This document shows, one piece after another, positions 4,134-60,067 of a DNA stretch of 64,000 nucleotides (position 1 is its first letter; the number at the start of each line of letters is the position of its first letter). Source of the stretch: Prevotella melaninogenica (lineage in GTDB: Bacteria > Bacteroidota > Bacteroidia > Bacteroidales > Bacteroidaceae); contig NZ_AP018049.1 in NCBI RefSeq assembly GCF_003609775.1, positions 620,001 through 684,000 of the forward strand, given 5' to 3'. A model generated the notes under the pieces. The model ran no database searches. It saw nothing but the letters and a program-made list of their open reading frames with translations, and was not told the origin of the DNA. A program made the position numbers and the translations under genes.

Positions 4134-4807
4134 TGTATTTCTTTCTTTTCTATTGTTCTTAGTTCAAAATCAACAGGTATGCTGAATTTCTTTTCTTGTT
4201 TATATTCAATGCGTCCATCTTGATGTTCTATAAGTCTAAATAATCTATTGATTATAAATTTCATCTTGAGATTGGATGTCTTTATATCATAGTGTGCATT
4301 AAGTATATCATTTAGTAGCAGAGCATCAACTTGATAAGTACCCTGAGAGGTCTTTATTTTTGTAGTAATACGTGGAGTTGCATATAAATCTGCTGGGTCC
4401 TTAGACTCTTGATTGCCTACAAGACGAAACTTAAGGTCGGCTAAAGGAACTTCAATTAATGCTGCACGAAGTTGAGTTGCTTCACTACTGTTGTCCTCAG
4501 TAGATATTCCAAATGCAAGAGCTTCATAAGGAAAGTTCTTGCAAACAACTATACCATCTTTATAGATGTCCCATTTGATATTACCACTAAGCCCCTGATT
4601 TTTTGCATCAGCACTTATTAAACCTTTGTAACTGCCAGGTATACTATTTAAAACCTTCGAACGTGCTTCAAGGAATTGTTCTTTTGTTAGTTCTATATTC
4701 TTATCCTCTATCTTTTCGTTATTGTCGTCTTTTGAGCAACTTGCCATAAACAATGTTATTACAAGTGCGCAAATAGCCACTACAGTGGTTCTTATAGTCC
4801 CTTTCAT
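4130..4807 (-). CDS. Putative lipoprotein, Bacteroidales-specific
   Basis: I place the start at 4807, giving MKGTIRTTVVAICALVITLF followed by the lipobox MASC. An upstream extension to 4924 would run into folE and remove the N-terminal signal sequence. The mature part of about 205 residues has SADAKNQGLSGNIKWDIYKD and alternating beta-rich stretches and resembles Bacteroidales lipoprotein families of the DUF4840 kind; I am not certain of that assignment. Function is unknown. Location is probably the periplasmic face or outer membrane, with SKDDN following the lipid-modified cysteine. Confidence 0.75.
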   Translation of the reverse strand: MKGTIRTTVVAICALVITLFMASCSKDDNNEKIEDKNIELTKEQFLEARSKVLNSIPGSYKGLISADAKNQGLSGNIKWDIYKDGIVVCKNFPYEALAFGISTEDNSSEATQLRAALIEVPLADLKFRLVGNQESKDPADLYATPRITTKIKTSQGTYQVDALLLNDILNAHYDIKTSNLKMKFIINRLFRLIEHQDGRIEYKQEKKFSIPVDFELRTIEKKEIQ

Positions 4808-7028: not shown

Positions 7029-8405
7029 TTGTCTTTTACGTTTTAAAAGTTGATATAATTTATTTGATTGTTCTTTTTGTAATATCCATTCCTCCTTTTG
7101 CTTCAACCATTCCTCTCGTTTTCTGACCCATCGTGTCCATGACCAAATGCGGTCGGCAACAATTAGGAGTGTCAGTGGGAAGATATAGCAAATAAGAATC
7201 AAGACAATCTTTGTCCATGTCTTATTCTCTGGTTCACGTCCTGCTTCAATAAGTGATAATGGGGCGTTCAGCTCTGCCTGCTTAGGAAGGGCATTGTGAC
7301 TCCACTTATTGATGATAGTACCTTTGTAAAGTAGCACCAAACCAGGATTACTACGGATGATTGTTTTCAGCGTTGTACCATCAGTTGTATAGAAAGGATA
7401 CTCGGCTCCAGTAATATCTCGCCAGTGTTTAACGGCTTTATCCGTACTTGCTGTGAGTCCATAGAAACCATAACCATTCTCTTTTGCATATTCATAGATT
7501 GCATCAATCTCACCAAAGTTACTATCGTCGGCACGTTCCAATACTGGGGCTACGAGTAGGAAAGTATATCCATCTTTGGTTAGTATGCTATCAGTAAGGT
7601 CTTCTCCCGTCTTCTCGTCTGTAATAGAGAAGTCGTGAATAGGGGGTTCATAGCCTTTTTCAAGTATCTCTTGGTGTGTATCTTTGAATACCCATGTTGA
7701 GTCATCGTATGGGTAATCATTCTCTGTGAACTCCTTTGTTACACCATCTTTCTCACAAATAAAGGTTGTCTTGTAAGTTGTCTGCTTGGCACCTTCAGGA
7801 ATCTCCATAGCCTTCTTGATATTCTGACCAATGTAATATGGACGGAAGTCGAAGATAGGCAAATGATAAAGACTCAGTATAGATGCCGTGAATATAAAGA
7901 CAATCGTGAAGTAGAAAGCAATCCACTGATTAGTTTTTGATACAAAACGTATCTGATAAAGTGGCCAACGTGCAAGGATGAAGGCAGCAATCAAGAGTAT
8001 AAGGTTCTTAATGAAAGTCTGTGTGTTTGTGAGGTGAATCGCATCACCAAAGCAGCCACAATCCTGTATTGGATTGCTTACAGTAAGCCAAAGGGTCACA
8101 AGCGTCATCACAACCATAATGATGAGTGAAAGCTTGCTGGCAAGTCGTCGACGGATAGCAAGCAGGAGCATCACACCTAAGGTGAACTCTATAGCTGCCA
8201 GTCCGACAGATAACATCAATTGCGCCCAGTCTGGAATATAAGCCGACAACTGTACCGCCTCTAAGTATTCTGCAATCTTATATTGCGAACCTAAAGGGTC
8301 AATCGCTTTGACAAAGCCCGAAAAGATGAATGTCAAAGCAAGTAGGGCACGGCTGAAGTTTACCAGTATGGACTTTATTTTATTCATGTAGTTTGATTGC
8401 TCCAA
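6267..8405 (-). CDS. Fusion: DoxX/BT_3928-like membrane protein plus triosephosphate isomerase
   Basis: One open frame of 712 residues. Residues 1-180 form a DoxX-type four-helix membrane module; 200-390 is a BT_3928-like periplasmic thioredoxin-like region; about 400-425 is one more membrane segment; 425-458 is a very basic, Trp/Glu/Lys-rich cytoplasmic helix. From Met460 the protein is a complete triosephosphate isomerase with AGNWKMN, LGHSERR (catalytic His), [12 protein letters not shown] (catalytic Glu) and YGGSCN. There is no stop between the parts. The isomerase may also be made separately from the ATG at 7028 (253 residues, the usual length). The 5' end overlaps the DUF1599 gene by 26 bp; a start six codons later is possible. 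Confidence 0.88.
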
Positions 8406-8952
8406 AAACAGCGTAGTTCATTATATCCATATAATTGGCATCGATACCCTCGCTGACAAGCGTTGCACCGCCAAGGTCTTCAATCTCCTTAATACGTTCA
8501 ATCTTTGTTAGGATTAGATCGGTATAGCTGCTGACACGCATGTCGCGCCAAGCCTCGCCATAGTCGTGATTCTTCTTTATCATCAACTCGTATGACTCCT
8601 TTGCGTAGCTATCGTATAGTGCTAATGCCTCATCAGGTGTCATATCAACGCTGTCGACAAAGCCTTTTTCCAACTGGATAAGTCCTACGATACTGTAGTT
8701 TATCAGTGCGATAAACTCTGGGCGGATGCCTTCACCCACCAAACTCTCACCTGTAATCTCCAAAGAACGGATGCGTTTTGCCTTAATAAAGAGCTGATCA
8801 GTGAGGGAAGAAGGGCGCAGAATACGCCATGAAGCACCATAGTCATGGAGCTTCTTCCCAAAAAGACTTCTGCACTCGGCGAGTACATCTTGAAATTCCT
8901 GCTGTGTCTTTGTCAGTTGACTTACCATAGTCTTATATTGATTTGACTGCAA
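8380..8952 (-). CDS. DUF1599 domain protein with internal duplication
   Basis: The 190-residue protein has two copies of one module. The first contains [18 protein letters not shown] and KRIRSLEI (about residues 37-67); the second contains [18 protein letters not shown] and ERIKEIED (about 128-158). This is the DUF1599 family arrangement, whose members are predicted nucleotide-binding proteins of unknown reaction. The stop overlaps the start of the DoxX/TpiA frame, so both are probably translated from one mRNA. The conserved His-Asp-Tyr-Gly suggests a metal or phosphate site (inference). Confidence 0.85.
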
Positions 8953-9560
8953 AAATACGTAATTTCGCTGTAATAAACGAATGAATTAACAACTATTCCT
9001 GTCATAAGGGGTGGTTTGTAAATGATTGTGAGCGATTGTAAAGTTAGTCTGTTTTTCTGTTTAATCTTTGTGTTGAGACTTTATTGCTACCTCCGCACTA
9101 TTCGTGTTTACCGTCCGCACCATTGGTGCTTAGCATCGACACAATGCGTGCGGAGCCTCCACAAATAACCAAGAAAGGTTCTGTGATGTAAGAGACTATT
9201 CTTTTTTTATTTTATCTATGCGCTTTTCTATGACAGAGGAAATCCTTCAAAATTAAATTTCCTGTCATCTCTGTCATCTGCTATTTGCTTATAACTAATT
9301 GGATTACAGATGGGTTGTGTGAAGTGTTAATTGTGACAGCAAAAGAAAATTAAACTTTTATTGTAGTATATGTGTATTTCTCTGAAAAGGGAAATTCGAC
9401 ATTCTCTCACAAAATAAAATACAGATTGACTCGTTCAATGTTTTCATTTCTTTCGTTGAAGTGTCTCTTAATGTTGTGGCTTTTAATACTCCACATATTA
9501 ACCCCGAACTGTTCATTATACCGTAATGTTTAGTTCTTAAAGACCAATTTGAGTTTATAA
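8953..9560. other. Long intergenic region
   Basis: There is no convincing gene between the DUF1599 start and the fimbrillin gene end. It holds the GC-rich repeat copy at 9091-9153 and otherwise AT-rich sequence. Confidence 0.5.
9091..9153. repeat. GC-rich dispersed repeat, copy 2 (inverted)
   Basis: It contains TCCGCACCATTGGTGCTTA, the reverse complement of the core at about 936-956, and flanking CCTCCGCAC and GTGCGGAGCC that can pair with each other. It is a GC-rich palindromic intergenic repeat. Confidence 0.6.
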
Positions 9561-9607
9561 AAGAAAGAGAGAATATGTCACTTTCCTATGAACATATCCT
9601 CTCTTTT
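9561..9607 (-). terminator. Terminator of fimbrillin/LRR gene
   Basis: An inverted repeat (AAAGAGAG-AATATGT against ACATATCC-TCTCTTT) lies just downstream of the stop at 9625 on the minus strand. Confidence 0.65.
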
Positions 9608-9624
9608 GAAGTATTATAACCAGA

Positions 9625-11670
9625 TTATTGTTTAATTATGACCTTGACATTGCTATTTGGTTTATTCTTGTCACTATTGTTAGTTATGATATTCTCTGTG
9701 AATATTATACCCTTACTGTCGAAATAATCCTTTTGCTGCTGAGTCATTGTTACTTTTATCTGTTTATCACCTGTAACATCAGTTTGAAGTCCTACAGCTA
9801 TATTCTCGATTGTCCCAGCTTCACTTATGTCGAGAGATGAGAGTTTACTATTTGAAACATTTATATTTTTCAATCCGTTTTTACTCCCTAACTTCAACTC
9901 GCGAATACCTGAATTATTCGTTGTTAGTTCTGTTAAGTGTGTATTATTACTTAAATCTAATGTTGTTATTCCTTTAACATAACTGAGGTTAAGTTTTTGC
10001 AGTTCTGTATTCTTGGTTACGTCTAAGGAACTTATCTGCGTACTGCCCAACTCAAGTATTTTTAAGTTAGTGCCTGCAGCTGCCAATCCTTTTATCTCTT
10101 TTACTGCAGAACCGAGGAGATTGATAGACTTCAATTTAGTCATTTTGCTAAAGTCGTAGCTTTCTATCTTATTACCCCAAGCAACAAAGTTTTCAAGTTG
10201 ATCTTTATCGGATAATCCCTCTATTTGGGTCAGTTTCCCAGTTGCACTTATATTGATAGAATTTATCTTTGGTGAGTTTAAAGTGTTGATGTTTGTCAGT
10301 TCCCCATTGTTATACGCTTGCAATGTTGTCAGAGCAGGAAGATTACTTGCGTCAATCTTAGTAAGCAGTTTGTTATTATATAACGCAAGTGTAGTCATTT
10401 GAGGGTTGTTACCCACTTTCGCTTCTGTCAGTCCATCCATATGATGAGCTGATAAGAATTTTAGATCTTTCAATCCTGAAATATCAAGTTTTGTTACTAA
10501 TGGGCTATTGCTGACTACAATAGTATTATTCAAATATGGGTTTTTGTTAAAATCAAGTTCTCCTGCAAGATTTTTGTTACCTTGAAGTGATACAGATGTT
10601 ATATTGCGATAATATTGTAGCTCATCAATAGATGTGAGTTTGTCGTTATCTGTAATTGTCAATATTCCCTTGTACGAAAGGATTTTCTCAAGGTTGTCTC
10701 CATCGTAAATGTCTAAGTTGCCGTCTGGTTTTCTATTCAGACCTGAAACTTTTGCAGCGACAGCATCAATTATAGGCTGATTCTTAAGAATGAAATCCTT
10801 AGCTTTAGTAGGGTCAAGTGTCATCTCACCGAGGTTATAAACCTGAGCACGTTGGATATTTACTTCCTGCTTAACCTTTTTCAGGATAGCCTTGCCATTC
10901 TGTAAAACAAAAATAAGTGTCAAACCCTGTGAAAGCTTTTGCTCTGGGAGGGCTATGTAATATGACTTATTCTCCTCAAGGCTGCCAGACTCTGCTGTAA
11001 GGTTTACTACTGGAGAAGCTGCAGTGAATTTGTTTTGGGCAGCACTAATCTTACCATCATTAGCAAAAGTGATGGTTGAATTTATTGTACCTGCAAGATT
11101 TTCCTGTCCAACAGCAAGCAATTTAACCTGCTTTACGTCAGAAGTACCTTTGATGGTAAAGCAAAGTAGTCCGCCAACATTGTATGCAATGAATGGTTTT
11201 CCACGCTGTGGAATGATACCAACAGAAACATTTGCCTTTGGATCAAAGCTGCCTGCAACAGCCTTTTGATTCTTAGGGAAGTCATACTGATATTCTGCTT
11301 GAGAATTACTCTTAACTGCAATCTTTGCATTCTCCTGATAAGGATACATCATGAAGTAGGGGTTTGGTTGATCATCAGCTTGCCCCCAGAAACGTACGTC
11401 ACTTCCCGTTGTCGGAGTTTTGAAAGGATAGGTTTTCTGATACCTGGCTGTCTTATAGCCAATACCTATTTGGTCATTAGTCTGCCAAGTTACAGTTGAG
11501 CCGTCTGTGCCAAGTACAGTACGTGTAACAGGCTGTGAAGAGCCTGCAATAAAACTCATGTCAACCAGTTTCTCGCTGGTTGCCTCAGTGCTATCAAAGT
11601 CGTCTTGTGAGCATGATGCTGTGGTGAGGGCAAGTCCTAAACACAGCAAGTATGTCTTAAAATGTTTCAT
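9625..11670 (-). CDS. Fimbrillin-type lipoprotein with leucine-rich repeats
   Basis: The 681-residue protein has a signal peptide and lipobox (TTASC, Cys20). Residues about 35-290 match the fimbrillin-like layout: TRTVLGTDGSTVTWQTNDQI, a central GGLLCFTIKG, and AQVYNLGEMTLD at the end. Residues about 325-640 form irregular leucine-rich repeats (LTSIDELQYYRNITSVSLQG, LQKLNLSYVKGITTLDLSNN). It is likely surface-exposed and lipid-anchored. Joining a pilin-like module to internalin-like repeats suggests adhesion or ligand binding (inference). The 54-codon peptide gene lies 51 bp upstream and is probably cotranscribed. Confidence 0.85.
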   Translation of the reverse strand: MKHFKTYLLCLGLALTTASCSQDDFDSTEATSEKLVDMSFIAGSSQPVTRTVLGTDGSTVTWQTNDQIGIGYKTARYQKTYPFKTPTTGSDVRFWGQADDQPNPYFMMYPYQENAKIAVKSNSQAEYQYDFPKNQKAVAGSFDPKANVSVGIIPQRGKPFIAYNVGGLLCFTIKGTSDVKQVKLLAVGQENLAGTINSTITFANDGKISAAQNKFTAASPVVNLTAESGSLEENKSYYIALPEQKLSQGLTLIFVLQNGKAILKKVKQEVNIQRAQVYNLGEMTLDPTKAKDFILKNQPIIDAVAAKVSGLNRKPDGNLDIYDGDNLEKILSYKGILTITDNDKLTSIDELQYYRNITSVSLQGNKNLAGELDFNKNPYLNNTIVVSNSPLVTKLDISGLKDLKFLSAHHMDGLTEAKVGNNPQMTTLALYNNKLLTKIDASNLPALTTLQAYNNGELTNINTLNSPKINSINISATGKLTQIEGLSDKDQLENFVAWGNKIESYDFSKMTKLKSINLLGSAVKEIKGLAAAGTNLKILELGSTQISSLDVTKNTELQKLNLSYVKGITTLDLSNNTHLTELTTNNSGIRELKLGSKNGLKNINVSNSKLSSLDISEAGTIENIAVGLQTDVTGDKQIKVTMTQQQKDYFDSKGIIFTENIITNNSDKNKPNSNVKVIIKQ

Positions 11671-51228: not shown

Positions 51229-51252
51229 CGAAGAAAAGAATTTCTTTTCATG
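51229..51252 (+). repeat. Left attachment-site repeat
   Basis: It is the 24-bp sequence beginning CGAAGAAAAGAATTTC and ending TTTTCATG, identical to 59905-59928. The centre (GAAAAGAATTTCTTTTC) is nearly palindromic, as tyrosine recombinase core sites are. Confidence 0.85.
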
Positions 51253-51368
51253 CAATAAATACTAACATTCATTATATCAGCCATTTATGATTTTACGCAC
51301 ATTCTGAATATGTGGGAATAAGAACCAATATTAAGAACGTCCCCAAAAGGGAAAAAAGTGTGTAAAGT

Positions 51369-53096
51369 ATGGAATTAAATCAATTAATTAGTGTTAATTT
51401 CAATTTGCGTAAACCAAAGAGCAGCACCCCAACCCCTTTATATATGGTGGTGTACTATGTTGATGACAAAGGAAAAGCAATTCAAGCAAAGATACCAACG
51501 AGAAGGAAAGTACACCCTTCTTTATGGGATAGCCGTAAACAGCAGCCAATAATGATTAATAAAGGTATTGACCTAACAACCAAGCAGTTACAAGAGCAGG
51601 CGGAATTAACCGCCTATATTGCTAATTGCCGTATTTTGGTATATTCAGAAAAAAATCTTAACTTTGACGAAATAAAAGAAAGTATAACCCAGCAAAGCAG
51701 TAATAACGATATGTCAGTAACACCGCAATTCAAGGCAGCCACACGAACAGCCAAGGCAACAAAGTTAATAAGTGAAGCACTAAAAAAATATACCAAAGAC
51801 AGACAGAACAAGGCAAGCACCGCAAGCGAATATCAGAAAAATGTTAAAGTGTTCTATAATTGGATTGTAGAAACCAATCAAAGGGATAGCGCAAAGGCAC
51901 TTAGTCAATCATCATTTAATGCTTTTGTAGAGTGGATGAAGGCAGCGGGGAACAGTCCCCAAAATGTTAATAAAATAGCCAGTGTTATAAGGCAGTTAAT
52001 TAAATATATTGCAGGCAGTACACAAGGCAGCAAGTACGGAATAACCCCCGTTACGTACACACCAATTAAGCAGGTGAAGGAAGAAAAGAAATGCGAATTA
52101 ACCAAAGAGGAAATAGAAGCATTCAAGGCGGTAAAGGTCAAAAATGATAAACAACAATATTACAAGGATGTGTTTTTATTACAATTACTTACGGGTCAGC
52201 GAATTAGCGACACGCTAAAGTTAATTAAAGGAGATTATAAGGTACAAAAAGGAACACCATGTAATACAATCATCTTAACTACTATTAAGCGTAATACAAC
52301 ATCATATATTACTGAAACAAAGGAAGTTACAGATTTATTGGAAAAGATAAGAAGTAATAAAGAAAATGAAACAGAAAATGAAAAAGATACATCATTAACA
52401 CGTTATTTGAAGGTGTTTTTTACACGTGCCAATATAACACGATTAACACCAAGTGGCAAGCCGTTAAATGAAGTTATAAGCAGTCATTTTGCCCGTCATA
52501 CGTTTGTAACTATCAAGTTAAGAGAAGGTTACAAATACGAACAAGTCGGTAAAATGATTGGGGATAGTGCATTAATGATTGAAAAAGTATACGGACACCC
52601 CACGGACACGGATATAATTGCTACATTGCAGTTGCAGCCAGCCAATACCCCAGCAATCCCAGCAGAACAGCCAGCAACAAAAGCAGCCCCACAAGTGGCA
52701 GCAGCCCCAGCAGTGGCAAAAGATAAAGATTTGGACTATTATAACGACTTGTCGGACGATGATAAATTACTGAACATCAAGAAGTTAAATGATTATAATG
52801 TGTTAAAAGATGATTTTTTCAAGTCATTAGAAAGACAAACAGACAAAAAGCGCAAAGCAACAGCAGAAGCAAAGATAAGGGAGATATTACAAGTATGGGG
52901 CTTTGAGGGTTATAACAATATGAATTACAATAAGTTATGTTTTTTATTGGACTTGATAAAGCATGATATTAACGACTTTATACTAACTTATAAGGTATAC
53001 AATGAGAAAGCCCCACAAGGCAGTATATCAGCAATAAATGATTATGAACGATTGCTTATAAACATAGGCAAGTTAGCCCGTTATTGTCATTTGTAG
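51369..53096 (+). CDS. int: Tyrosine recombinase (integrase) with long C-terminal extension
   Basis: The 575-residue protein has an arm-binding N-terminal domain (about 1-110, KIPTRRKVHPSLWDSRKQQP), a SAM-like core-binding domain (about 132-220) and a catalytic domain (about 240-420). Catalytic residues are Arg278 (LLTGQRIS), Lys307 region, His373 and Arg376 (SSHFARHTFVT) and Tyr408 (KVYGHP). The usual second His before the Tyr appears as Asp399 (MIGDSALM). After a Pro/Ala-rich linker (about 425-458) comes an extension of about 115 residues that I do not recognise. It should integrate and excise this element. Confidence 0.93.
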   Translation: MELNQLISVNFNLRKPKSSTPTPLYMVVYYVDDKGKAIQAKIPTRRKVHPSLWDSRKQQPIMINKGIDLTTKQLQEQAELTAYIANCRILVYSEKNLNFDEIKESITQQSSNNDMSVTPQFKAATRTAKATKLISEALKKYTKDRQNKASTASEYQKNVKVFYNWIVETNQRDSAKALSQSSFNAFVEWMKAAGNSPQNVNKIASVIRQLIKYIAGSTQGSKYGITPVTYTPIKQVKEEKKCELTKEEIEAFKAVKVKNDKQQYYKDVFLLQLLTGQRISDTLKLIKGDYKVQKGTPCNTIILTTIKRNTTSYITETKEVTDLLEKIRSNKENETENEKDTSLTRYLKVFFTRANITRLTPSGKPLNEVISSHFARHTFVTIKLREGYKYEQVGKMIGDSALMIEKVYGHPTDTDIIATLQLQPANTPAIPAEQPATKAAPQVAAAPAVAKDKDLDYYNDLSDDDKLLNIKKLNDYNVLKDDFFKSLERQTDKKRKATAEAKIREILQVWGFEGYNNMNYNKLCFLLDLIKHDINDFILTYKVYNEKAPQGSISAINDYERLLINIGKLARYCHL

Positions 53097-53106
53097 GCAG
53101 CAAGCA

Positions 53107-53145
53107 AAGGGAAGTAACCAAATAACGGCTATTTCCCTTTTATTT
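53107..53145 (+). terminator. Terminator after integrase
   Basis: AAGGGAAGTA pairs with TATTTCCCTT and is followed by TTATTTT, 12 bp after the integrase stop. Confidence 0.65.
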
Positions 53146-53161
53146 TCTGTAGGGGTTGTTA

Positions 53162-53214
53162 GCATTATATCCCACCACCTTTAATTAGTGGTGGGGATAT
53201 AATTTGGGTTGGTA
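53162..53214 (-). repeat. Hairpin family copy H1
   Basis: On the minus strand it reads TACCAACCCAA, stem ATTATATCCCCACCAC, loop, complementary stem, then GC. It is almost identical (one mismatch over 53 bp) to H2 at 53741-53793. Confidence 0.85.
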
Positions 53215-53441
53215 TGTTTATTTTTATTTTATTCTTTCCCTTTCTTTCTCCTTTCCCTTTTACCTACCTTCAGCAGCAGGGACAGACACAACAACACCCA
53301 GCACCCCACAAATACCCCCTTTATTAGCGTTCTAACGGCTTATCTTATTAATTCCCTTGTACTATACCAACCATAACATTATAACGGCTAATATCGCTTT
53401 TATTTTCTATATTAATAAGGTGTAATAAAAAATGTTTAGTA

Positions 53442-53705
53442 GGGGTAATAAATTACCCCCTATATAGTCATCTAATAGGAAGTATCTACATAGGTAATAT
53501 AATACCTATCCCTTCATAGTTAAAAGTAACCCTATAACCAATTTTGGGTACAAAGATACATATATACAAGTATACCCTTAGGTACTATGACACCTAACTA
53601 TATATGAAGTATACCCATAGGTATATTTATATGATGATATAAAAAAAACTACCTATACCCTTAGGTACTATAATACCTATACCCTTAGGTACTATAATAC
53701 CTAAC
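53442..53705. repeat. Iteron-like array, candidate replication origin
   Basis: It includes palindromes GGGGTAATAAATTACCCC (53442-53459) and ATAGGTA-N6-TACCTAT (53490-53509). Two exact tandem 24-bp units starting ACCTATACCCTTAGGTACTA lie at 53651-53674 and 53675-53698, with degenerate copies at about 53570-53594 and 53609-53625. The region is very AT-rich with repeated TAGGTA/TACCTA words. With the helicase-primase gene nearby this is a good candidate origin or a cluster of regulator sites. Confidence 0.65.
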
Positions 53706-53740
53706 ATAATATAATAGTAATAAAATAATAATAGATTATA

Positions 53741-53793
53741 GCATTATATCCCACCACCTTTAATTAGTGGTAGGGATATAATTTGGGTTGGTA
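53741..53793 (-). repeat. Hairpin family copy H2
   Basis: It is the near-identical partner of H1 (A in place of G in one stem arm). It has the same TACCAACCCAA and GC boundaries on the minus strand and lies just after the iteron-like array. Confidence 0.85.
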
Positions 53794-53892
53794 TTATATT
53801 TTATATGATATATTATGCTATTGTACTGATGAGTGTATAAGTGCAAGGGAATAACACAGCAAGGCAAGAAAGCGAAGCAATGAAATAAACAA

Positions 53893-53944
53893 ACCAACCC
53901 AAGTTATATATAACAACCCCTTCAAGGGTTGGAATATATAACGC
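53893..53944 (+). repeat. Hairpin family copy H3
   Basis: ACCAACCCAA is followed by outer stem GTTATATAT/ATATATAAC enclosing inner stem CAACCC/GGGTTG and then GC. The stem sequence differs from H1/H2 while both boundaries are kept. From 53945 to 54404 I see AT-rich sequence with no convincing gene. Confidence 0.85.
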
Positions 53945-54404
53945 TATATCAACCCTATTACAACCATTATTACACCCAAGCCACTATATAAACGTATATA
54001 TTGCGATTTAACGGCTTATTATCTCCTTTGCTTGCAACTTGCTACTACAGCAGCAAAAGCCCCTTATACGTGCTTATTTTGCCTTATTCCCAATATTACC
54101 ACCACCAGCAACACAATACACCAAGCGAAAGGGAAAATAATACACCCCAGCCAGCAGCACCCCCAGCCACTTAATACACCAAATATCCCCTTATTTATCC
54201 TTAATATTCAAAACTGATTAGAAAACTCAAAATTATTTTCAATTATTTTTAAATTATTTTTCCTTTGTTTTAGCGGTTTTCAAGAAGATTTGTAGAAAAC
54301 TTTATAAAATATACTTGACTTTCTCGAATTAAATTATACTTATTTATATAGAGGGGTACTTAAAATATACACTCCAATAATAACGATTTAGAAATATAAA
54401 GAAA

Positions 54405-54605
54405 ATGGAAAAAGAAAAATATAGACATTCAGAAGAAACAAAGAGAAAGATAAGCGAGGCGCAAAAGAAAAGATATAAGAATATGACACCAGCCCAAGAG
54501 GAAAAGCGTATTAAATCAATTAAGGCAAAATGGGAGAAGATTAATGCAGCCCGTAAATTGTTAGAAATGAATGAATTATATAAAAAGTGTATGTTTGAAA
54601 ATTAA
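54405..54605 (+). CDS. Small NUMOD3-like DNA-binding peptide
   Basis: The 66-residue, very basic peptide contains RHSEETKRKISEAQKKRYKN, the pattern of NUMOD3, a DNA-binding module normally found in homing endonucleases. A second, weaker repeat follows (EEKRIKSIKAKWEK). No nuclease domain is present. It probably binds DNA and may act on the element's control region or hairpins (inference). A hairpin terminator follows the stop. Confidence 0.75.
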   Translation: MEKEKYRHSEETKRKISEAQKKRYKNMTPAQEEKRIKSIKAKWEKINAARKLLEMNELYKKCMFEN

Positions 54606-54621
54606 GAAAAAGATATAAAAT

Positions 54622-54675
54622 AAAGGTGGTATAAAAGGGGGCTTTTTGTTTGGGTTTGCCCCCACCACTTTTTTA
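54622..54675 (+). terminator. Terminator after NUMOD3-like gene
   Basis: Nested stems AAAGGTGGT/ACCACTTT and GGGGGC/GCCCCC end in a run of six T residues, 17 bp after the stop. Confidence 0.75.
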
Positions 54676-54729
54676 ATATAAAAACAACCCAACACAGATT
54701 AATAATAATAACTTTATAACCCAAACATT

Positions 54730-55227
54730 ATGAGTTATCAAATAAATGAGTTTATTATACTCAATCAATTACAAGACCTAACAAGTGCAAACGAGATAAT
54801 AACAATGTTGCACTTAATATCACAAGGTAAAAGAGAAATTCAGACCCAAAAGTCACACATTGCCACCCTTTGCGGACAAAGAGGAAAGGACAAAAATAAT
54901 AACACAAAGTTAGTAAATAAGATTATAAAGGGGTTGACGGAAAAGGGCTATTTAACCAGCACCAACACCGATTATATTTTAATCAAGGGTATAAATAAAA
55001 CTACTACTAAATGGGTGTTATCTGATAAATCAATGTCGATTATAAAGTCGTTGAATAGCAAGCAAAAGCAAGCGAAAGCAACAAGTAAAATAAAACCACC
55101 AACCCAAGCGTACCAAGCGACCACCAAGGAAGCGAAGGAAGCGACAAAGGAAACAGACACCAAGACAGAACAACAGCCAAGTTTGGCAGAACAAAGAAGA
55201 CAATTAGAAGAAGCAATAAAAGATTAA
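54730..55227 (+). CDS. Putative winged-helix DNA-binding protein
   Basis: The 165-residue protein has an N-terminal region (about 10-100) with a plausible winged-helix pattern: SANEIITMLHLISQGKREIQ, KSHIATLCGQRGKDKNN (recognition helix), GLTEKGYLTSTNTDYIL (wing). A Lys/Thr/Ala/Glu-rich low-complexity tail follows (about 110-155). It starts upstream of the helicase-primase gene with a 4-bp gap, so a role in replication initiation or regulation is likely. No known Rep family was recognised with confidence. Confidence 0.6.
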   Translation: MSYQINEFIILNQLQDLTSANEIITMLHLISQGKREIQTQKSHIATLCGQRGKDKNNNTKLVNKIIKGLTEKGYLTSTNTDYILIKGINKTTTKWVLSDKSMSIIKSLNSKQKQAKATSKIKPPTQAYQATTKEAKEATKETDTKTEQQPSLAEQRRQLEEAIKD

Positions 55228-55231
55228 GATT

Positions 55232-57163
55232 ATGTACAATTTTATTACAACAAGCGATTTTATTACAAGCGCAAAAGCGTATAAATCTTTTGAAGGTTAT
55301 CGTTGTGGACTGAAGGACTTTGATAATATAATGCGAATTGATAAGCAAACGTTAACTACCTTAGTATCAACACCTTGTAGCGGTAAGAGTACATTTACAA
55401 ACTTTTACGGATATTCTATGGGGGTAACTCATAATTGGCGTACTTTATACCTTGCCACAGAAACAAACCGAAACGACCAAGCAAAGAAGTTAAGCACATT
55501 ATACGCAAGTTACCAGCAGGCAAGCGAACACAGCATTATCTTAGAGGGTGCATTATCTAATTGGGAGGAATTGTTAGAAGCAATCAAGGTAGCCAAGGAA
55601 GCGTATAATATTGATTTAGTAATAGTTGATAACATGACAATGTTAAAAAAATTGATTAAGGGCAACGATACCGAGACGGAAAAAATCGGAAGGGCTTTGA
55701 GTGATTTAAAGCAGGCAAGTATAGATAACGATATAGCGGTTATTCTTGTTGCACACACGACTAAACTTGATGAAGGTCAGAAGGTTACGGCTTATTCGGT
55801 TAATGGTTCAGCCAATTATTACAATATTAGTGATTTTATGTTTTCAATCGAAATTACAGATTGCAAACAAAAGGAAACGACAATTAATGTGTTGAAATTG
55901 CGTGATGACGCAAAGGGTGTTATGAATGGAAAATGTACCCTTAAATACGATGACATTACAAGGAAGTACAGCGATGACAGCAGCACCGAGGACAACACCC
56001 CAAAGGGTATTAATTATGACATTGCAAGGGAAGTAATGGAGGAAATAATGGAGGAAAAAGCAAAGGAAGGCAGCCAGCCAGCAGCACAAGCAACCCCAAC
56101 AGCAACACAGCCAGCAGGAACAACCAAAGCAGCCCCAGCAGTCAAAGAGGAAGTAACCAAGGAGAAAGCAAATACCGAGGAAGTAAAGAAAGAAAAGCAG
56201 GAGGAAGCAAAGGAGGAAGCAAAGCAGCATATAACCCCCGATTTTTTGCTTAATACTAAAGTGTCAATAATGAAACAACATAAAGTACTGAATAGCAATT
56301 CTTTATATAATGCTATAATAACGGGCAGAATTTGCAAAGAAGAAATAAAAGCGGTTAGACAGATAGACAGAAGCAAAGACGAAATAGCATACAAGAAAGC
56401 AAAAAGCAAAGTATTATCATTTACCCCTTCATGTTATTGCACTATAGGAGGAACAGCCAAGGACGTGGAACACGTTAACAACTTGATAGCCATAGATTTG
56501 GACGCTAAAGATAACGAAGGTGTAACAATAGAAGAAATGCGTAAAAGGATAAATTCACTACCTTATGTTATGTATAGTAGTATGTCAGTAGGAGGCAAAG
56601 GGATGTACGCTTTAATACCAATTTTGGAAAGTAATAAAAACGACTTTAAGGCGGTGTTTAAAGCGTTGGAGGAGGACTTTAAGGCGTTGGGATTAACTTT
56701 AGATAGTTCATGTATTAACGTCAATCGTGAAAGATATATGAGTTATGATGATAACGAATATTGGAACACACAATGCGAAATTTACGACAGAAAAATATCA
56801 AAACCAACCCAAGTTAACACCCACCCTTCAAAGGTGGGGGAGAACGCAAAAACAACCCTTACAGCAAGGGAGTTTAGCAAAGTCAGGGACATGGTAAAGG
56901 ATATAAAAGAAAACCGCTTAATACTCACAAAAAATCATACTGATACGCTAATGATTGCGAATTGTTTAGCCAACATTTGGGGAGAAGAAGGACGGCAACT
57001 ATTACACATAATCAGACAGCAAAGAAGCGGTTACGATGAGTTCAAGACAGACGAAAATTATACGTATGTGTTAGACCACTTAGATGAAGGCGAAAAATTT
57101 AATATTGGTTTCCTTTTCTCAAAATACAACCAAGCAAAGGGACACCAAACACAAGTAAATTAA
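55232..57163 (+). CDS. Helicase-primase replication protein (RecA-fold helicase then AEP-like primase)
   Basis: The 643-residue protein has a DnaB/Twinkle-like RecA-fold ATPase at residues 1-240: Walker A STPCSGKST (46-54), Walker B LVIVDNM (Asp133), and ILVAHTTK (His175). A Glu/Lys/Ala-rich linker follows (265-332). Residues 340-515 resemble the BT4734-like/VirE_N family, with an AEP-type DxD (NLIAIDLDAKDN, Asp422/Asp424), SVGGKGMYALIP (452-463) and NVNRERYMSYD. Residues about 545-640 resemble a PriCT-2 primase tail (NIWGEEGRQLLHIIRQQRSG). It probably unwinds and primes the element's DNA. The helicase-first order is unusual. Confidence 0.8.
   Translation: MYNFITTSDFITSAKAYKSFEGYRCGLKDFDNIMRIDKQTLTTLVSTPCSGKSTFTNFYGYSMGVTHNWRTLYLATETNRNDQAKKLSTLYASYQQASEHSIILEGALSNWEELLEAIKVAKEAYNIDLVIVDNMTMLKKLIKGNDTETEKIGRALSDLKQASIDNDIAVILVAHTTKLDEGQKVTAYSVNGSANYYNISDFMFSIEITDCKQKETTINVLKLRDDAKGVMNGKCTLKYDDITRKYSDDSSTEDNTPKGINYDIAREVMEEIMEEKAKEGSQPAAQATPTATQPAGTTKAAPAVKEEVTKEKANTEEVKKEKQEEAKEEAKQHITPDFLLNTKVSIMKQHKVLNSNSLYNAIITGRICKEEIKAVRQIDRSKDEIAYKKAKSKVLSFTPSCYCTIGGTAKDVEHVNNLIAIDLDAKDNEGVTIEEMRKRINSLPYVMYSSMSVGGKGMYALIPILESNKNDFKAVFKALEEDFKALGLTLDSSCINVNRERYMSYDDNEYWNTQCEIYDRKISKPTQVNTHPSKVGENAKTTLTAREFSKVRDMVKDIKENRLILTKNHTDTLMIANCLANIWGEEGRQLLHIIRQQRSGYDEFKTDENYTYVLDHLDEGEKFNIGFLFSKYNQAKGHQTQVN
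56803..56847 (+). repeat. Hairpin family copy H4 inside the coding sequence
   Basis: ACCAACCCAA, GTTA, inner stem CCCACC/GGTGGG, then GAACGC occur within the helicase-primase gene and keep its frame, encoding the stretch PTQVNTHPSKVGENA between the primase and PriCT-like parts. The outer stem is weak here. Confidence 0.7.
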
Positions 57164-57198
57164 AAGAAATAATATAATAAAGAAATAAAAAATATAAT

Positions 57199-57597
57199 AT
57201 GGAAAATATGGCTAATGAATTGACAGACAGAGAGTTTTATAAACTCAAAAATGGAATAATGCACCAGAATTTCAAAGGGTTTGACTTTAAATGGAATGAG
57301 AACCGAATATATTGCGCAAAGGTACTACAAAATGGTGAATATCAGTGGATAAGGTGGAATGATAACAACGGCTACGACCTCAACAGCATAAAAAGAGGGG
57401 ACGTTATAATGCTGCAAAAAATGCACCATACCAAAAACAGAACAATAGATAAAATCTACTATAAGGTAATAAGCAGAACAAAAGATAAATTAGTGTGCGA
57501 ATGGGCAAGCGGAGATAACGTTTACACCACATACAGAAAAGCGTTAAAAGCACCTTTACCAAAAGCAAAGGAGTGTAAAGAACTAATTAAAGAATAA
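57199..57597 (+). CDS. Hypothetical protein of the mobile element
   Basis: The 132-residue protein is mixed alpha/beta with Trp- and Tyr-rich strands (NGEYQWIRWNDNNGYDLNSI) and a basic middle part (KMHHTKNRTIDKIYYKVISR). No signal, membrane segment or known motif was recognised; Met4 is an alternative start. The pattern of repeated short strands around KRGDVIML could be a small barrel (inference only). It follows the helicase-primase gene by 35 bp. Confidence 0.65.
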   Translation: MENMANELTDREFYKLKNGIMHQNFKGFDFKWNENRIYCAKVLQNGEYQWIRWNDNNGYDLNSIKRGDVIMLQKMHHTKNRTIDKIYYKVISRTKDKLVCEWASGDNVYTTYRKALKAPLPKAKECKELIKE

Positions 57598-57615
57598 AGA
57601 TAAAAAGATAAGAAT

Positions 57616-57774
57616 ATGTTATTTTTAATTTTTATGATAATTGCCGTGTTTTGCGGTATATCATTATTCAGCATGGGAATAGATGTTGGCAAGGAGTTAC
57701 AAAGAAAGGAAGACGAAAAGCAAAATAAAATATTAAAGGAAATTAGACAAAAAGGATATGATGTAAACTATTAA
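57616..57774 (+). CDS. Small membrane protein, 52 residues
   Basis: The frame begins MLFLIFMIIAVFCGISLFSM, one hydrophobic helix, followed by a charged tail (GKELQRKEDEKQNKILKEIR). It lies 18 bp after the preceding gene on the same strand. It could be a small inner membrane protein; a toxin or holin role has no support beyond size and shape. Confidence 0.5.
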   Translation: MLFLIFMIIAVFCGISLFSMGIDVGKELQRKEDEKQNKILKEIRQKGYDVNY

Positions 57775-57804
57775 TAATCAATAAACTAACCAATAATATA
57801 AGAT

Positions 57805-57972
57805 ATGATAAGTGAAAAACTTAACCTAAAGGAAATGAAGGAAATAGCGAGAAAGGAAGTTGAGAAAAGACGCAAAGAAGAAATAAATATATTAAAGGAA
57901 AAAACAGCGAAGGAAAGAAAGATAATAAATGAGAAATACGATACATTTATAAAGCAGATTAACGCACTTTAA
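57805..57972 (+). CDS. Small charged helical protein, 55 residues
   Basis: The frame begins MISEKLNLKEMKEIARKEVE and continues as an almost uninterrupted Lys/Glu helix ending KYDTFIKQINAL. No motif was recognised. It is the last gene of the rightward run and is followed by a hairpin terminator at 58021. Confidence 0.5.
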   Translation: MISEKLNLKEMKEIARKEVEKRRKEEINILKEKTAKERKIINEKYDTFIKQINAL

Positions 57973-58020
57973 TTGAATTAATATACCAAATATATTCTTT
58001 TCAAATCAATATATAATCAA

Positions 58021-58058
58021 AAGGGAGATAACTAATAATGGTTATTTCCTTTTTTTGT
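58021..58058 (+). terminator. Terminator after the small-gene run
   Basis: AAGGGAGATAAC pairs imperfectly with GTTATTTCCTT and is followed by seven T residues, about 50 bp after the stop at 57972. Confidence 0.65.
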
Positions 58059-58106
58059 GTTTGATACTAACCAAGCAGAAAGAAAAGATAAATAATAAAA
58101 TAAACA

Positions 58107-58170
58107 TACCAACCCAATAATACAATATAAGGAGATAACACACACTATCAAAGTGTTGTTATCGTATATG
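58107..58170 (+). repeat. Hairpin family member H5 (divergent)
   Basis: TACCAACCCA is followed, after an insert, by stem GATAAC-a-CACACT / AGTGT-t-GTTATC. The stem is longer-spaced than in H3 and H8 and the end boundary is less clear. Confidence 0.55.
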
Positions 58171-58669
58171 ATACCAGCAACACCAAGGGGATAAATAGAA
58201 GCGATATAAAGCGGTATATATTAATTAGTGGTAAAGTTACAAGGTAACAAAGGAACAAGCCAGCAGGAACGAAATAAACAGCATATAGCCAATATCAACA
58301 CCACGCACGACAATAGCAAATACAACACCACGCACACAGATAGCCAATATATAACACAGATTGAAGTAATAGTAAACACCAATACACCAAGCAAACATAA
58401 CATCAAGTAGACAAGCAGGCAGGCAAGCAAACAACACTACCAATTAAAAGAGAGATAGAAAGATAAGGAGCAAAGTAATACACCACATCAACGTATTAGC
58501 CGTTTAATAGCGTTCTGTTGCGTTATAATGATGTCAGTAACACAACACACCACAACGAATAAAAGACACGCTTACAACGGCTTAGAATAGATATAATAAC
58601 TTGATAATAAGATATTTAAAATAAATAACTTTTTCATGTATTTGTAAGTTTATTAGTTAATGTTAAGGA

Positions 58670-58703
58670 GAGAGTTAACCACCCTTTGAAGGTGGTAACT
58701 CTC
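58670..58703 (+). repeat. Hairpin H6
   Basis: GAGAGTT-a-ACCACC pairs with GGTGGT-AACTCTC around a 7-base loop. The ACCAACCCAA boundary is missing, but GGGTTGGTATTA follows about 75 bp downstream in inverted sense. A direct repeat ACTGACTTAAT lies at about 58705 and 58735. Confidence 0.6.
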
Positions 58704-59356
58704 GACTGACTTAATGAGTAGTTAAGTATTACCAACTGACTTAATTATGAATGAATTGTAAAAGGGTTGGTATTAGATTGATTGTATAATGATTAGTGAC
58801 ACCAAGGCAGAACAACATCAAGGGAATAACACACCAAGACAGCCAAAGAGGAAGTAAAGACACAATACTATTATATTACTTTATTAGTGGTTTATTTGCG
58901 TTATAACGTATTATAATAGTGATTATTAATACTATATCAATAGAACGGATATAAACGCTTATAAGCGTATTAAATGGGTTGTTTAGTGCTATTATAGTTA
59001 ATTAGTAAGGCAGTAACACAGCAAGCAACTAAAGGACACACCAAGGCAAGTAAAGGACACAGACAGCACAACAGCCAGCAAGTAAGGAAGTAAGACACCA
59101 GCAAGACAGCAAGCAAGCAAGGAAAGCAACACAGCAAGGCAAGTAATGTAATTAATCAAGGCAGGCAGGGGGGGGAGCCCTTTTTTTTGGAGGGGGCCTT
59201 ATTTTAAACCCCCCACTCCCTTTTTTTCTCGCAAGCGCAAATTTTCTGAATTATTGGAACGAGCACTATTTATTAGTATTTTTCTTTTTTCTGATTTTAG
59301 TAAAAAATCTATTTCAAAAATTATTTTTTCTATTATACTTTAAGAGGACAGCAGGA

Positions 59357-59400
59357 ACACACGATTTAATTAACGTGTGTACGCTTGTAAGGGTTGGTAT
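59357..59400 (-). repeat. Hairpin H7
   Basis: ACACACG and CGTGTGT form a 7-bp stem around ATTTAATTAA, followed by ACGCTTGTAA and GGGTTGGTAT, the inverted form of the family's left boundary. Confidence 0.55.
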
Positions 59401-59595
59401 TTGTGTTTAGATAAAATATAAAGGTACAACAGCAGCAGGGAAACAATACAATCAAGCCAGTACAGACAGACACCAGCAACACAGCAAGGGACACAATACA
59501 CCCCAGCAAGCACGGCAATAGTAAGCACAAGCCAGCAGCACAGACGGCAAACACAACATCAAGCACAACAGCCCCAAAGGGGAACTAAATTATAA

Positions 59596-59649
59596 TACCA
59601 ACCCAAGTTATTAATGTCACCCTTTATAATAGGGTGTCATTAATAACGC
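59596..59649 (+). repeat. Hairpin family copy H8
   Basis: TACCAACCCAA is followed by outer stem GTTATTAATG/CATTAATAAC, inner stem CACCCT/AGGGTG and then GC. The boundaries match H3 exactly while the stem is different and fully paired. Confidence 0.87.
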
Positions 59650-59671
59650 TACATAACATTAATATATAACA

Positions 59672-59718
59672 CCCCCACACACCTATATTATAAGGTGGTG
59701 GGGGCTTTTCTTTTCTTA
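59672..59718 (+). terminator. GC-rich hairpin terminator near right end
   Basis: CCCCCA-CACACCT pairs with AGGTG-GTGGGGG around a short AT loop, followed by TTTTCTTTTC. Confidence 0.7.
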
Positions 59719-59904
59719 TTCTATCCTTCTTTATCTTTTCCTTCCTTTAGTGGGTTGGTGTTTTTATTTGCTAATAAAAGTTAACGATTTGGAGGTTACA
59801 CCGCAAAAACTTATCTTTGTACCATACATCAATAAGAACCACATTTAGAATATGTGCAAGCAATAAATGTAAAATGTGTTGATATTCAATGAATTGCATA
59901 AAAT

Positions 59905-59928
59905 CGAAGAAAAGAATTTCTTTTCATG
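59905..59928 (+). repeat. Right attachment-site repeat
   Basis: It is identical over 24 bp to 51229-51252. Beyond it the chromosome continues with TTTTCATGAAAA-type palindromes (around 59972), which also appear as inverted sequence just left of the element. Confidence 0.85.
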
Positions 59929-60033
59929 AAAAAAAATATTTTTCTTCACGTAAATAAATATTTCTTTTCATGAAAATAATTCGCAGTTGGTTGTTTTCTT
60001 TCGAATCTTCGTGTGTAAGACGGGATTTTATAG

Positions 60034-60041
60034 TATCTTTG
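60034..60041 (+). promoter_or_regulatory. Promoter -7 box for the DUF4922 gene
   Basis: TATCTTTG matches TAnnTTTG, 26 bp before the start codon at 60068. No clear -33 box is seen. The element's right end lies about 105 bp upstream. Confidence 0.5.
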
Positions 60042-60067
60042 CAAGTAGATAAAAGAACACATTTTAG

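Follow-up and report, generated by a model that had tools for sequence, protein, structure and literature searches.

Decamer-tagged hairpins in a mobile element of Prevotella melaninogenica and their possible role as priming sites

The element and its hairpin modules

The stretch of DNA analysed here, referred to as the window, comprises 64,000 nucleotides of the Prevotella melaninogenica genome (contig NZ_AP018049.1, positions 620,001 to 684,000). Within it lies what is probably an integrated mobile element of ~8.5 kb, extending from 51299 to 59856 in window coordinates, as judged from a bounding direct repeat, ACATTYWGAATATGTG, with copies at ~51299 and ~59841. The element encodes a tyrosine recombinase (integrase), a NUMOD3 peptide, a 165-amino-acid (165-aa) protein, a 643-aa ATPase-primase, a 132-aa orphan and two small open reading frames (ORFs), and it includes ~1.3 kb plus ~1.9 kb of mostly non-coding DNA. 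It also carries a family of hairpins that share a ten-base tail. A full module consists of the decamer ACCAACCCAA, followed by a hairpin of 33-41 nucleotides (nt) and then by GC. Five full modules (H1, H2, H3, H4 and H8) are present where an initial annotation of the sequence had placed them, with H1 ending at 53162 and H8 at 59649.

The hairpins of H1, H2, H3, H4 and H8 are 40, 40, 40, 33 and 41 nt long, respectively, and GC follows each of them directly. H1 (53162..53213, decamer 53204-53213) and H2 (53741..53792, decamer 53783-53792) lie on the minus strand; H3 (53893..53944), H4 (56803..56847) and H8 (59597..59649), whose decamers begin at 53893, 56803 and 59597, lie on the plus strand. 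The H1 stem has 10 + 5 pairs with one bulge and that of H8 has 16 pairs. H2 is a near copy of the H1 module in different flanks, and H3 diverges from H2. H4 is found inside the primase gene, in frame, and is built of three outer pairs, a 4x4 internal loop and six upper pairs. The ends of integron attC sites have the form RYYYAAC ... GTTRRRY; inspection of the sequences showed that the outer stem of most copies reads GTTA...TAAC, which is the reverse order, and attC was rejected as an identity for the modules.

No hairpin adjoins two of the seven exact decamers of the window element. One of these, at 55098..55107 on the plus strand, lies within the 165-aa protein gene and has no hairpin. The other belongs to H5 (58108..58163, plus strand), in which a 16-nt spacer separates the decamer from a 12-pair hairpin. 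H5, H6 and H7 had been described initially as divergent members of the family. None of the three is a full module: H6 (58670..58771) and H7 (59357..59398), both on the minus strand, each combine ACCAACCCTT with a hairpin at a distance, that of H7 having seven pairs.

Stems of this kind are rare in the elements. On both strands of both elements described below, only 0.0003 of positions have a stem of at least eight pairs that closes exactly before GC, with one mismatch allowed and with the modules themselves included in this background. At four of the seven window decamers (H1, H2, H3 and H8), a stem of at least nine pairs begins at the very next base and closes before GC. A scan for hairpins with a shared 5' flank returned six pairs for the element, each drawn from H1, H2, H3 and H8, and none in each of five shuffles; in the other 51 kb of the window it returned five unrelated pairs, as compared to 3, 1, 1, 1 and 1 in the shuffles.

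Corresponding sites in a sister element

The same genome (3.09 Mb in three contigs) contains a second element, at approximately 863.7-871.9 kb of contig C1. Its sites are designated here by p and their position in the reverse complement of the sister locus, L008 (p = 13002 minus the L008 position). The main matching stretch of the two elements covers 3.9 kb and is 76% alike; identity is 69% for the primase, 84% for the 132-aa ORF and 38% for the 165-aa protein. Five full modules are present in the sister as well, with p4677 as a sixth site. Each element has seven exact decamers, and the two sets correspond one to one in order, place and orientation. The counterparts of H1, H2, H3, H4 and H8 are p4037, p4677, p4782, p7607 and p10009, and H7 has none. 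Both H4 and p7607 fall in the linker that joins the primase domain to the C-terminal domain and that varies in length among homologues. The hairpin-less decamer at 55098 corresponds to a full module in the sister, p5908, which is in frame; both fall within the tail of the 165-aa protein.

Exact decamers number 23 in the entire genome, 14 of which are in the two elements, as compared to five occurrences of a reversed control word. A hairpin adjoins 11 of these 14, a count that includes p4677 as well as p5908 and p10009, which fold but fail the strict test for a GC-closed stem. GC is common to ten of the 11, and the 3' side of the ten modules reads GCTA in eight and GCAA in two. In all five pairs compared, the decamer tail is identical although the hairpins differ. 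In ungapped comparison of H1 with p4037, 20 of 20 upstream and 18 of 20 downstream bases are alike and the stem is rewritten. The flanks of the other pairs match less well (16 and 10 of 20 bases upstream and downstream for H3, 9 and 15 for H4, 9 and 17 for H8, and 8 and 6 for H2). We consider the presence of a hairpin beside 11 of 14 decamers to be a stronger argument than the covariation described in the next section.

A fixed 10-mer that occurs in both orientations and is concentrated in the elements might also serve another element protein: as arm sites of the integrase, or as a target of the 165-aa protein or of the NUMOD3 peptide, the last having been suggested initially. The integrase (51369..53096, plus strand; Pfam Phage_integrase, 9.8e-8; PHROG integrase, 5.5e-23) does match an arm-binding domain in Pfam below threshold (18.1 of the 22.6 bits needed). 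However, the modules span 6.5 kb and do not cluster at the element ends, the identity of the 165-aa protein is down to 38% with no such divergence of the decamer, and the hairpin would stay unexplained. A role of this kind is improbable in our estimation.

Further copies were sought with an RNA covariance model, R1, a search that had been proposed with the initial annotation. In the genome itself, where 150 of 2028 first-look candidates were scored, R1 gave ten strong matches, none of them outside the two elements; they are the ten modules from which it was built. Two weak matches elsewhere, at C2:708008-708080 and C2:734263-734338 (E 0.33 and 0.74), are probably due to chance. In other genomes the search recovered nothing: only the genome of origin was positive among relatives (1 of 100) and genus genomes (1 of 398), at a reduced sensitivity (up to 47 or 12 candidates scored per genome) at which weak copies could be missed. 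Within that scope, the hairpin family was found only in these two elements.

Searches of plasmid, phage, viral and genome collections, within the scope given below, likewise brought up no close relative. The element DNA (53100-60050) matched no plasmid or phage, and the 132-aa ORF was absent from the plasmids. The primase protein matched 68 phage records, all of them below 60% identity and with less than 80% of the query covered; the best of those listed had 32% identity over 38% of the query. In viral contigs selected by decamer context, the best GC-bounded stem had three pairs, as expected by chance (80 of 94 stretches checked), and no viral contig was retrieved by two element proteins. The primase alignment retrieved 584 stretches of genome contigs, from just two short patterns, and none was confirmed. 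A 16-mer retrieved at least 120 stretches; in a check of 120 of these that allowed any closing position, the 12 best stems had 7-9 pairs and were not GC-closed, and the rest had at most seven. At E<=1e-3 the primase was detected in 29 of 150 genus genomes, the genome of origin included, with all others at or below 32% identity, and at 1e-10 in 12 of 393 genomes of the order, again including its own. No description of such a module was found in the open-access literature, a search outside which most subscription journals fall.

The distribution and placement of the modules bear on the possibility that they are a selfish palindromic repeat, which copies itself within the element family and tolerates in-frame insertion into protein linkers. 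Rickettsia palindromic elements are palindromes of this type, found inside genes and in frame. Here, too, the four in-ORF sites (H4, p7607, 55098 and p5908) share one reading frame, the three in-ORF hairpins measure 33, 36 and 39 nt, the linker that holds the copy in the primase gene varies in length, the hairpin has been lost from one site, and the near identity of H1 and H2 is limited to the module. The modules differ from the Rickettsia elements in being restricted to one element family and to fixed sites: the seven exact decamers stand at matching places in both elements, so that no new site was seen, linker lengths give no clear sign of insertion, and R1 has just the two weak matches elsewhere in the genome. 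Repetitive extragenic palindromes (REPs) associated with Y1 transposases (RAYT) are also short palindromes, described as having a constant tag at one end (PMC3733652). The tag is different here, and the copies are not genome-wide, the strong matches being confined to the two elements. A REP/RAYT system was rejected on these grounds and on the absence of Y1 transposase matches from this genome, as opposed to their presence in 5 of 14 control genomes. Spreading as a palindromic element, one of the roles first offered, therefore retains the copying between H1 and H2 and loses its expected transposase. On the whole we regard a selfish repeat as unlikely.

Beyond the modules, the two elements share several non-coding stretches, which possibly represent origin or regulatory DNA. 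The 95 bases around H5 (58072-58166) are identical; ~58646-58816 is identical or nearly so except for a 30-base insertion and the inverted hairpin tip of H6; and ~59636-59725 is identical or almost so. A hairpin with a T-rich tail at ~59669-59715, which follows a long non-coding stretch and is unchanged in the sister, resembles a terminator by eye and is absent from the list of the terminator scan. Among the smaller genes, the 66-aa NUMOD3 peptide (54405..54605, plus strand; Pfam NUMOD3, 1.3e-4) and a 52-aa ORF (57616-57774; weak PHROG holin match, E 0.005) have similar ORFs in the sister. The 132-aa ORF (57199-57597), 84% conserved there, was assigned to neither a Pfam nor a PHROG family at E 0.01 and was found in its own genome only among 398 genus genomes. 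Directly beyond both element ends, at 51230-51252 and 59906-59928, is a 23-bp direct repeat, GAAGAAAAGAATTTCTTTTCATG, with no further exact copy in the window.

Pairing and rewriting of the stems

The initial annotation had noted that the ends of the modules are conserved and that their stems change and stay complementary. This was confirmed and extends to the second element: in an alignment of the ten modules, fitted to the model, both partners have changed in 11 of 15 pairs and no pair shows a one-sided change. The comparison is one of two elements from one genome; copies with compensatory differences do exist in a related element, of which this is the only one found. Paired cells made up 85.9% of 142, as compared to 66.2% in shuffled and 33-47% in slid alignments, with the consensus structure drawn from the same ten sequences, which favours paired scores. 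Five pairing measures were compared with 500 shuffles, and three of them exceeded every shuffle. In a direct count over the ten modules, from which p4677 was excluded, 138 of 143 pairs were Watson-Crick, none was G-T, one was A-C and four were purine-purine.

This pairing had initially been taken as evidence of selection for structure, a conclusion that proved too strong. At H8 and H6, the loop is the exact reverse complement of that in the sister. H1 and H2, which had been listed among copies with different stems, are alike in 51 of 52 module bases, a likeness confined to the module, and are not independent. Because of these inversions and this near copy, covariation alone is no proof of selection on the pairing. 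Template switching is described as homogenising the arms of inverted repeats and inverting their spacers (PMC8604942, PMC8794818). The hairpins were apparently rewritten by something like this process, together with conversion between copies.

It is possible that nothing more is involved, and that the hairpins are quasi-palindromes without a role, which arose beside a conserved protein-binding decamer and are re-perfected by template switching. The exact loop inversions at H8/p10009 and at H6, the lack of one-sided stem changes and the known effects of template switching on arms and spacers would all be expected of such a by-product. It leaves unexplained why p4677, an unrelated hairpin, also adjoins a decamer, and why hairpins occur at 11 of the 14 exact decamers with GC after ten of those 11. 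We therefore consider a mere mutational by-product to be quite unlikely.

Compensatory changes in RNA are generally assumed to proceed via G-U. The lack of G-T among 143 pairs, together with the lack of one-sided changes, is more in keeping with a DNA hairpin than with a structured RNA module or terminator, another of the roles offered at first, and the presence of modules on both strands points the same way. Rfam contributed a single match, to SAM-III (20.6 bits, as compared to the 45 needed), at 53515-53598, outside the modules, and no RNA family was accepted. A terminator identity was rejected as well, the tip of H3 being the only part of any module that resembled one. On the other side, the predicted folds are stable and the in-ORF copies are in the sense orientation. 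Moreover, the G-T count is not decisive, because template switching may renew RNA hairpins without G-U steps (PMC8794818). We judge an RNA role to be disfavoured and of low probability.

A possible role as priming sites

Among the roles that had been offered, that of single-strand initiation (ssi) sites fits the sequences best. We tentatively propose that the modules serve as priming sites, recognised by the ATPase-primase that the element itself encodes. The integrative element would copy itself after excision; on an exposed strand, ACCAACCCAA would stay single-stranded as a 5' tail beside the hairpin; the ATPase-primase would recognise the tail by its individual bases and the hairpin by shape; and primer synthesis would start at the module. 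Since the G-T-free count leaves room for an RNA, we set the probability of this proposal somewhat short of even and keep a small one for the RNA explanation.

The ATPase-primase (55232..57163, plus strand) combines a RecA/DnaB-like ATPase (Pfam AAA_25, 3.3e-9), a BT4734-like domain (BT4734-like_N, 1.3e-8) and a C-terminal domain that corresponds to PriCT-2 in homologues. In an alignment of the primase part with 11 members, the window and sister proteins included, the BT4734-like domain was matched in all 11 and PriCT_2 in nine, the window copy itself having no PriCT_2 match. The BT4734-like family is counted among the archaeo-eukaryotic primases (AEPs) (PMC5862659), and for the related class CAPP_B a catalytic AEP domain of VirE-N type has been described (PMC8211822). 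The window protein scored 35 bits against the CAPP_B Db member in NCBIfam, far under the cut-off of 200.

Beside the diverging pair H2/H3, at 53491, 53579, 53662 and 53686 (span 53491..53703), are four copies, with 0-2 mismatches, of an 18-bp iteron-like repeat, TAGGTACTATAATACCTA. At the corresponding place (4497-4594 of the L008 reverse complement), the sister has three copies of a different repeat, CAGTCAAAAATGACTG, with 0-1 mismatch, and retains a single relative of the first repeat in the window; the last two repeats are spaced by 24 bases in both elements. These repeats may be where an initiator opens the DNA. The 165-aa protein (54730..55227, plus strand) is a weak candidate for this initiator, of the winged-helix type: the window copy has no Pfam family at 0.01, and the sister copy matches HTH_36 below threshold (4.3e-4, 20.5 bits, 25 needed). 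The repeats and the presumed initiator differ between the elements and the primase and the decamer are kept, as expected if the primase reads the decamer.

A close parallel is provided by ssiA and ssiB of the IncQ plasmid RSF1010, described as hairpin sites of ~40 nt with a specific 5' single-stranded tail, on both strands of a replicon that has iterons and its own primase and helicase (PMC4434180, PMC4234260). The RepB' primase is reported to contact the 5' single-stranded tail and the first pair of the ssiA hairpin (PMC4434180). A hairpin with a conserved 5' tail is likewise found here at the sequence level, and the iteron-like repeats at 53491-53703, beside H2 and H3, are a candidate for the iteron origin. 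In contrast, RSF1010 has one site per strand, and the window element three full modules on the plus and two on the minus strand; RSF1010 has a GTG start motif 3' of the hairpin, where GCTA or GCAA stands here; its primase is of the RepB' family, and the present one has BT4734-like_N, with PriCT_2 in homologues; and the present stems are rewritten, with one site inside the primase gene. Because copy number, GTG and primase family do not agree, we do not file the modules as ssi sites, although in our reading they may work like them.

Two other systems bear comparison with the modules. The pRN1 family, whose related replicons can occur in one host and encode a primase-helicase, has a replication-essential stem-loop that is described as keeping its structure with low sequence conservation between conserved flanks (PMC4234260). 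Here such a pattern is clear at H1/p4037 and weaker at the other four pairs. The pRN1 family differs in that a single stem-loop of 100 bp follows the rep gene and iterons are lacking, as opposed to several hairpins of 33-41 nt, one of them in a gene, plus repeats. The single-strand origin of ICEBs1 is a priming site on an integrative element; ICEBs1 is described as replicating by the rolling-circle mode (PMC4595007), whereas a scan of seven proteins of the present element recognised no relaxase.

Several observations weigh against priming by the element's own enzyme. The ATPase-primase profile matched no solved primase, and the structure model was unusable (pLDDT 39). The module count and the 3' side depart from RSF1010, and the assignment of the presumed initiator is weak. 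The hairpin at p4677 is unrelated to H2 and not GC-closed. In the ten-module alignment, 20 of 142 cells were unpaired; the score for doubly changed pairs was reached by 13 of 500 shuffles, which is weak support, and that for further pair types by 220 of 500, which is none. A distant full-length homologue of the ATPase-primase with 28% identity, at 8360-10956 of locus L295, where a 211-aa ORF lies ahead of the gene, is not accompanied by this hairpin family, and neither are the other primase loci (21 distinct genome loci in all, several of only 2-4 kb, and one phage record). Flank-sharing hairpin pairs in L276, L280, L282, L291, L295 and the phage were judged by eye to be repeats or chance, and none had the ACCAACCCAA tail.

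A broader picture can be drawn, which we consider possible and more doubtful than priming itself: that of a mobile replicon with dispersed priming hairpins that it reads itself, in which the fixed ten-base tail would be an address and the exchangeable stem a shape, with sites on either strand and even within the primase gene. The stems would be renewed by template switching at sites of replication, and the initiator and repeats would diverge so that two sisters could share one cell.

Perfect covariation of a hairpin can arise by template switching, and it should by itself not be taken as proof of structural selection. To our knowledge, it is not known how BT4734-like primases of mobile elements choose their start sites. 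If the priming reading is true, the modules would be candidate templates for a direct priming test of these enzymes, and the sister pair would be a natural experiment that separates the specificity of the initiator, which has diverged, from that of the priming site, which has been kept. The tagged hairpins would then be a fresh twist on an already known kind of replication signal.

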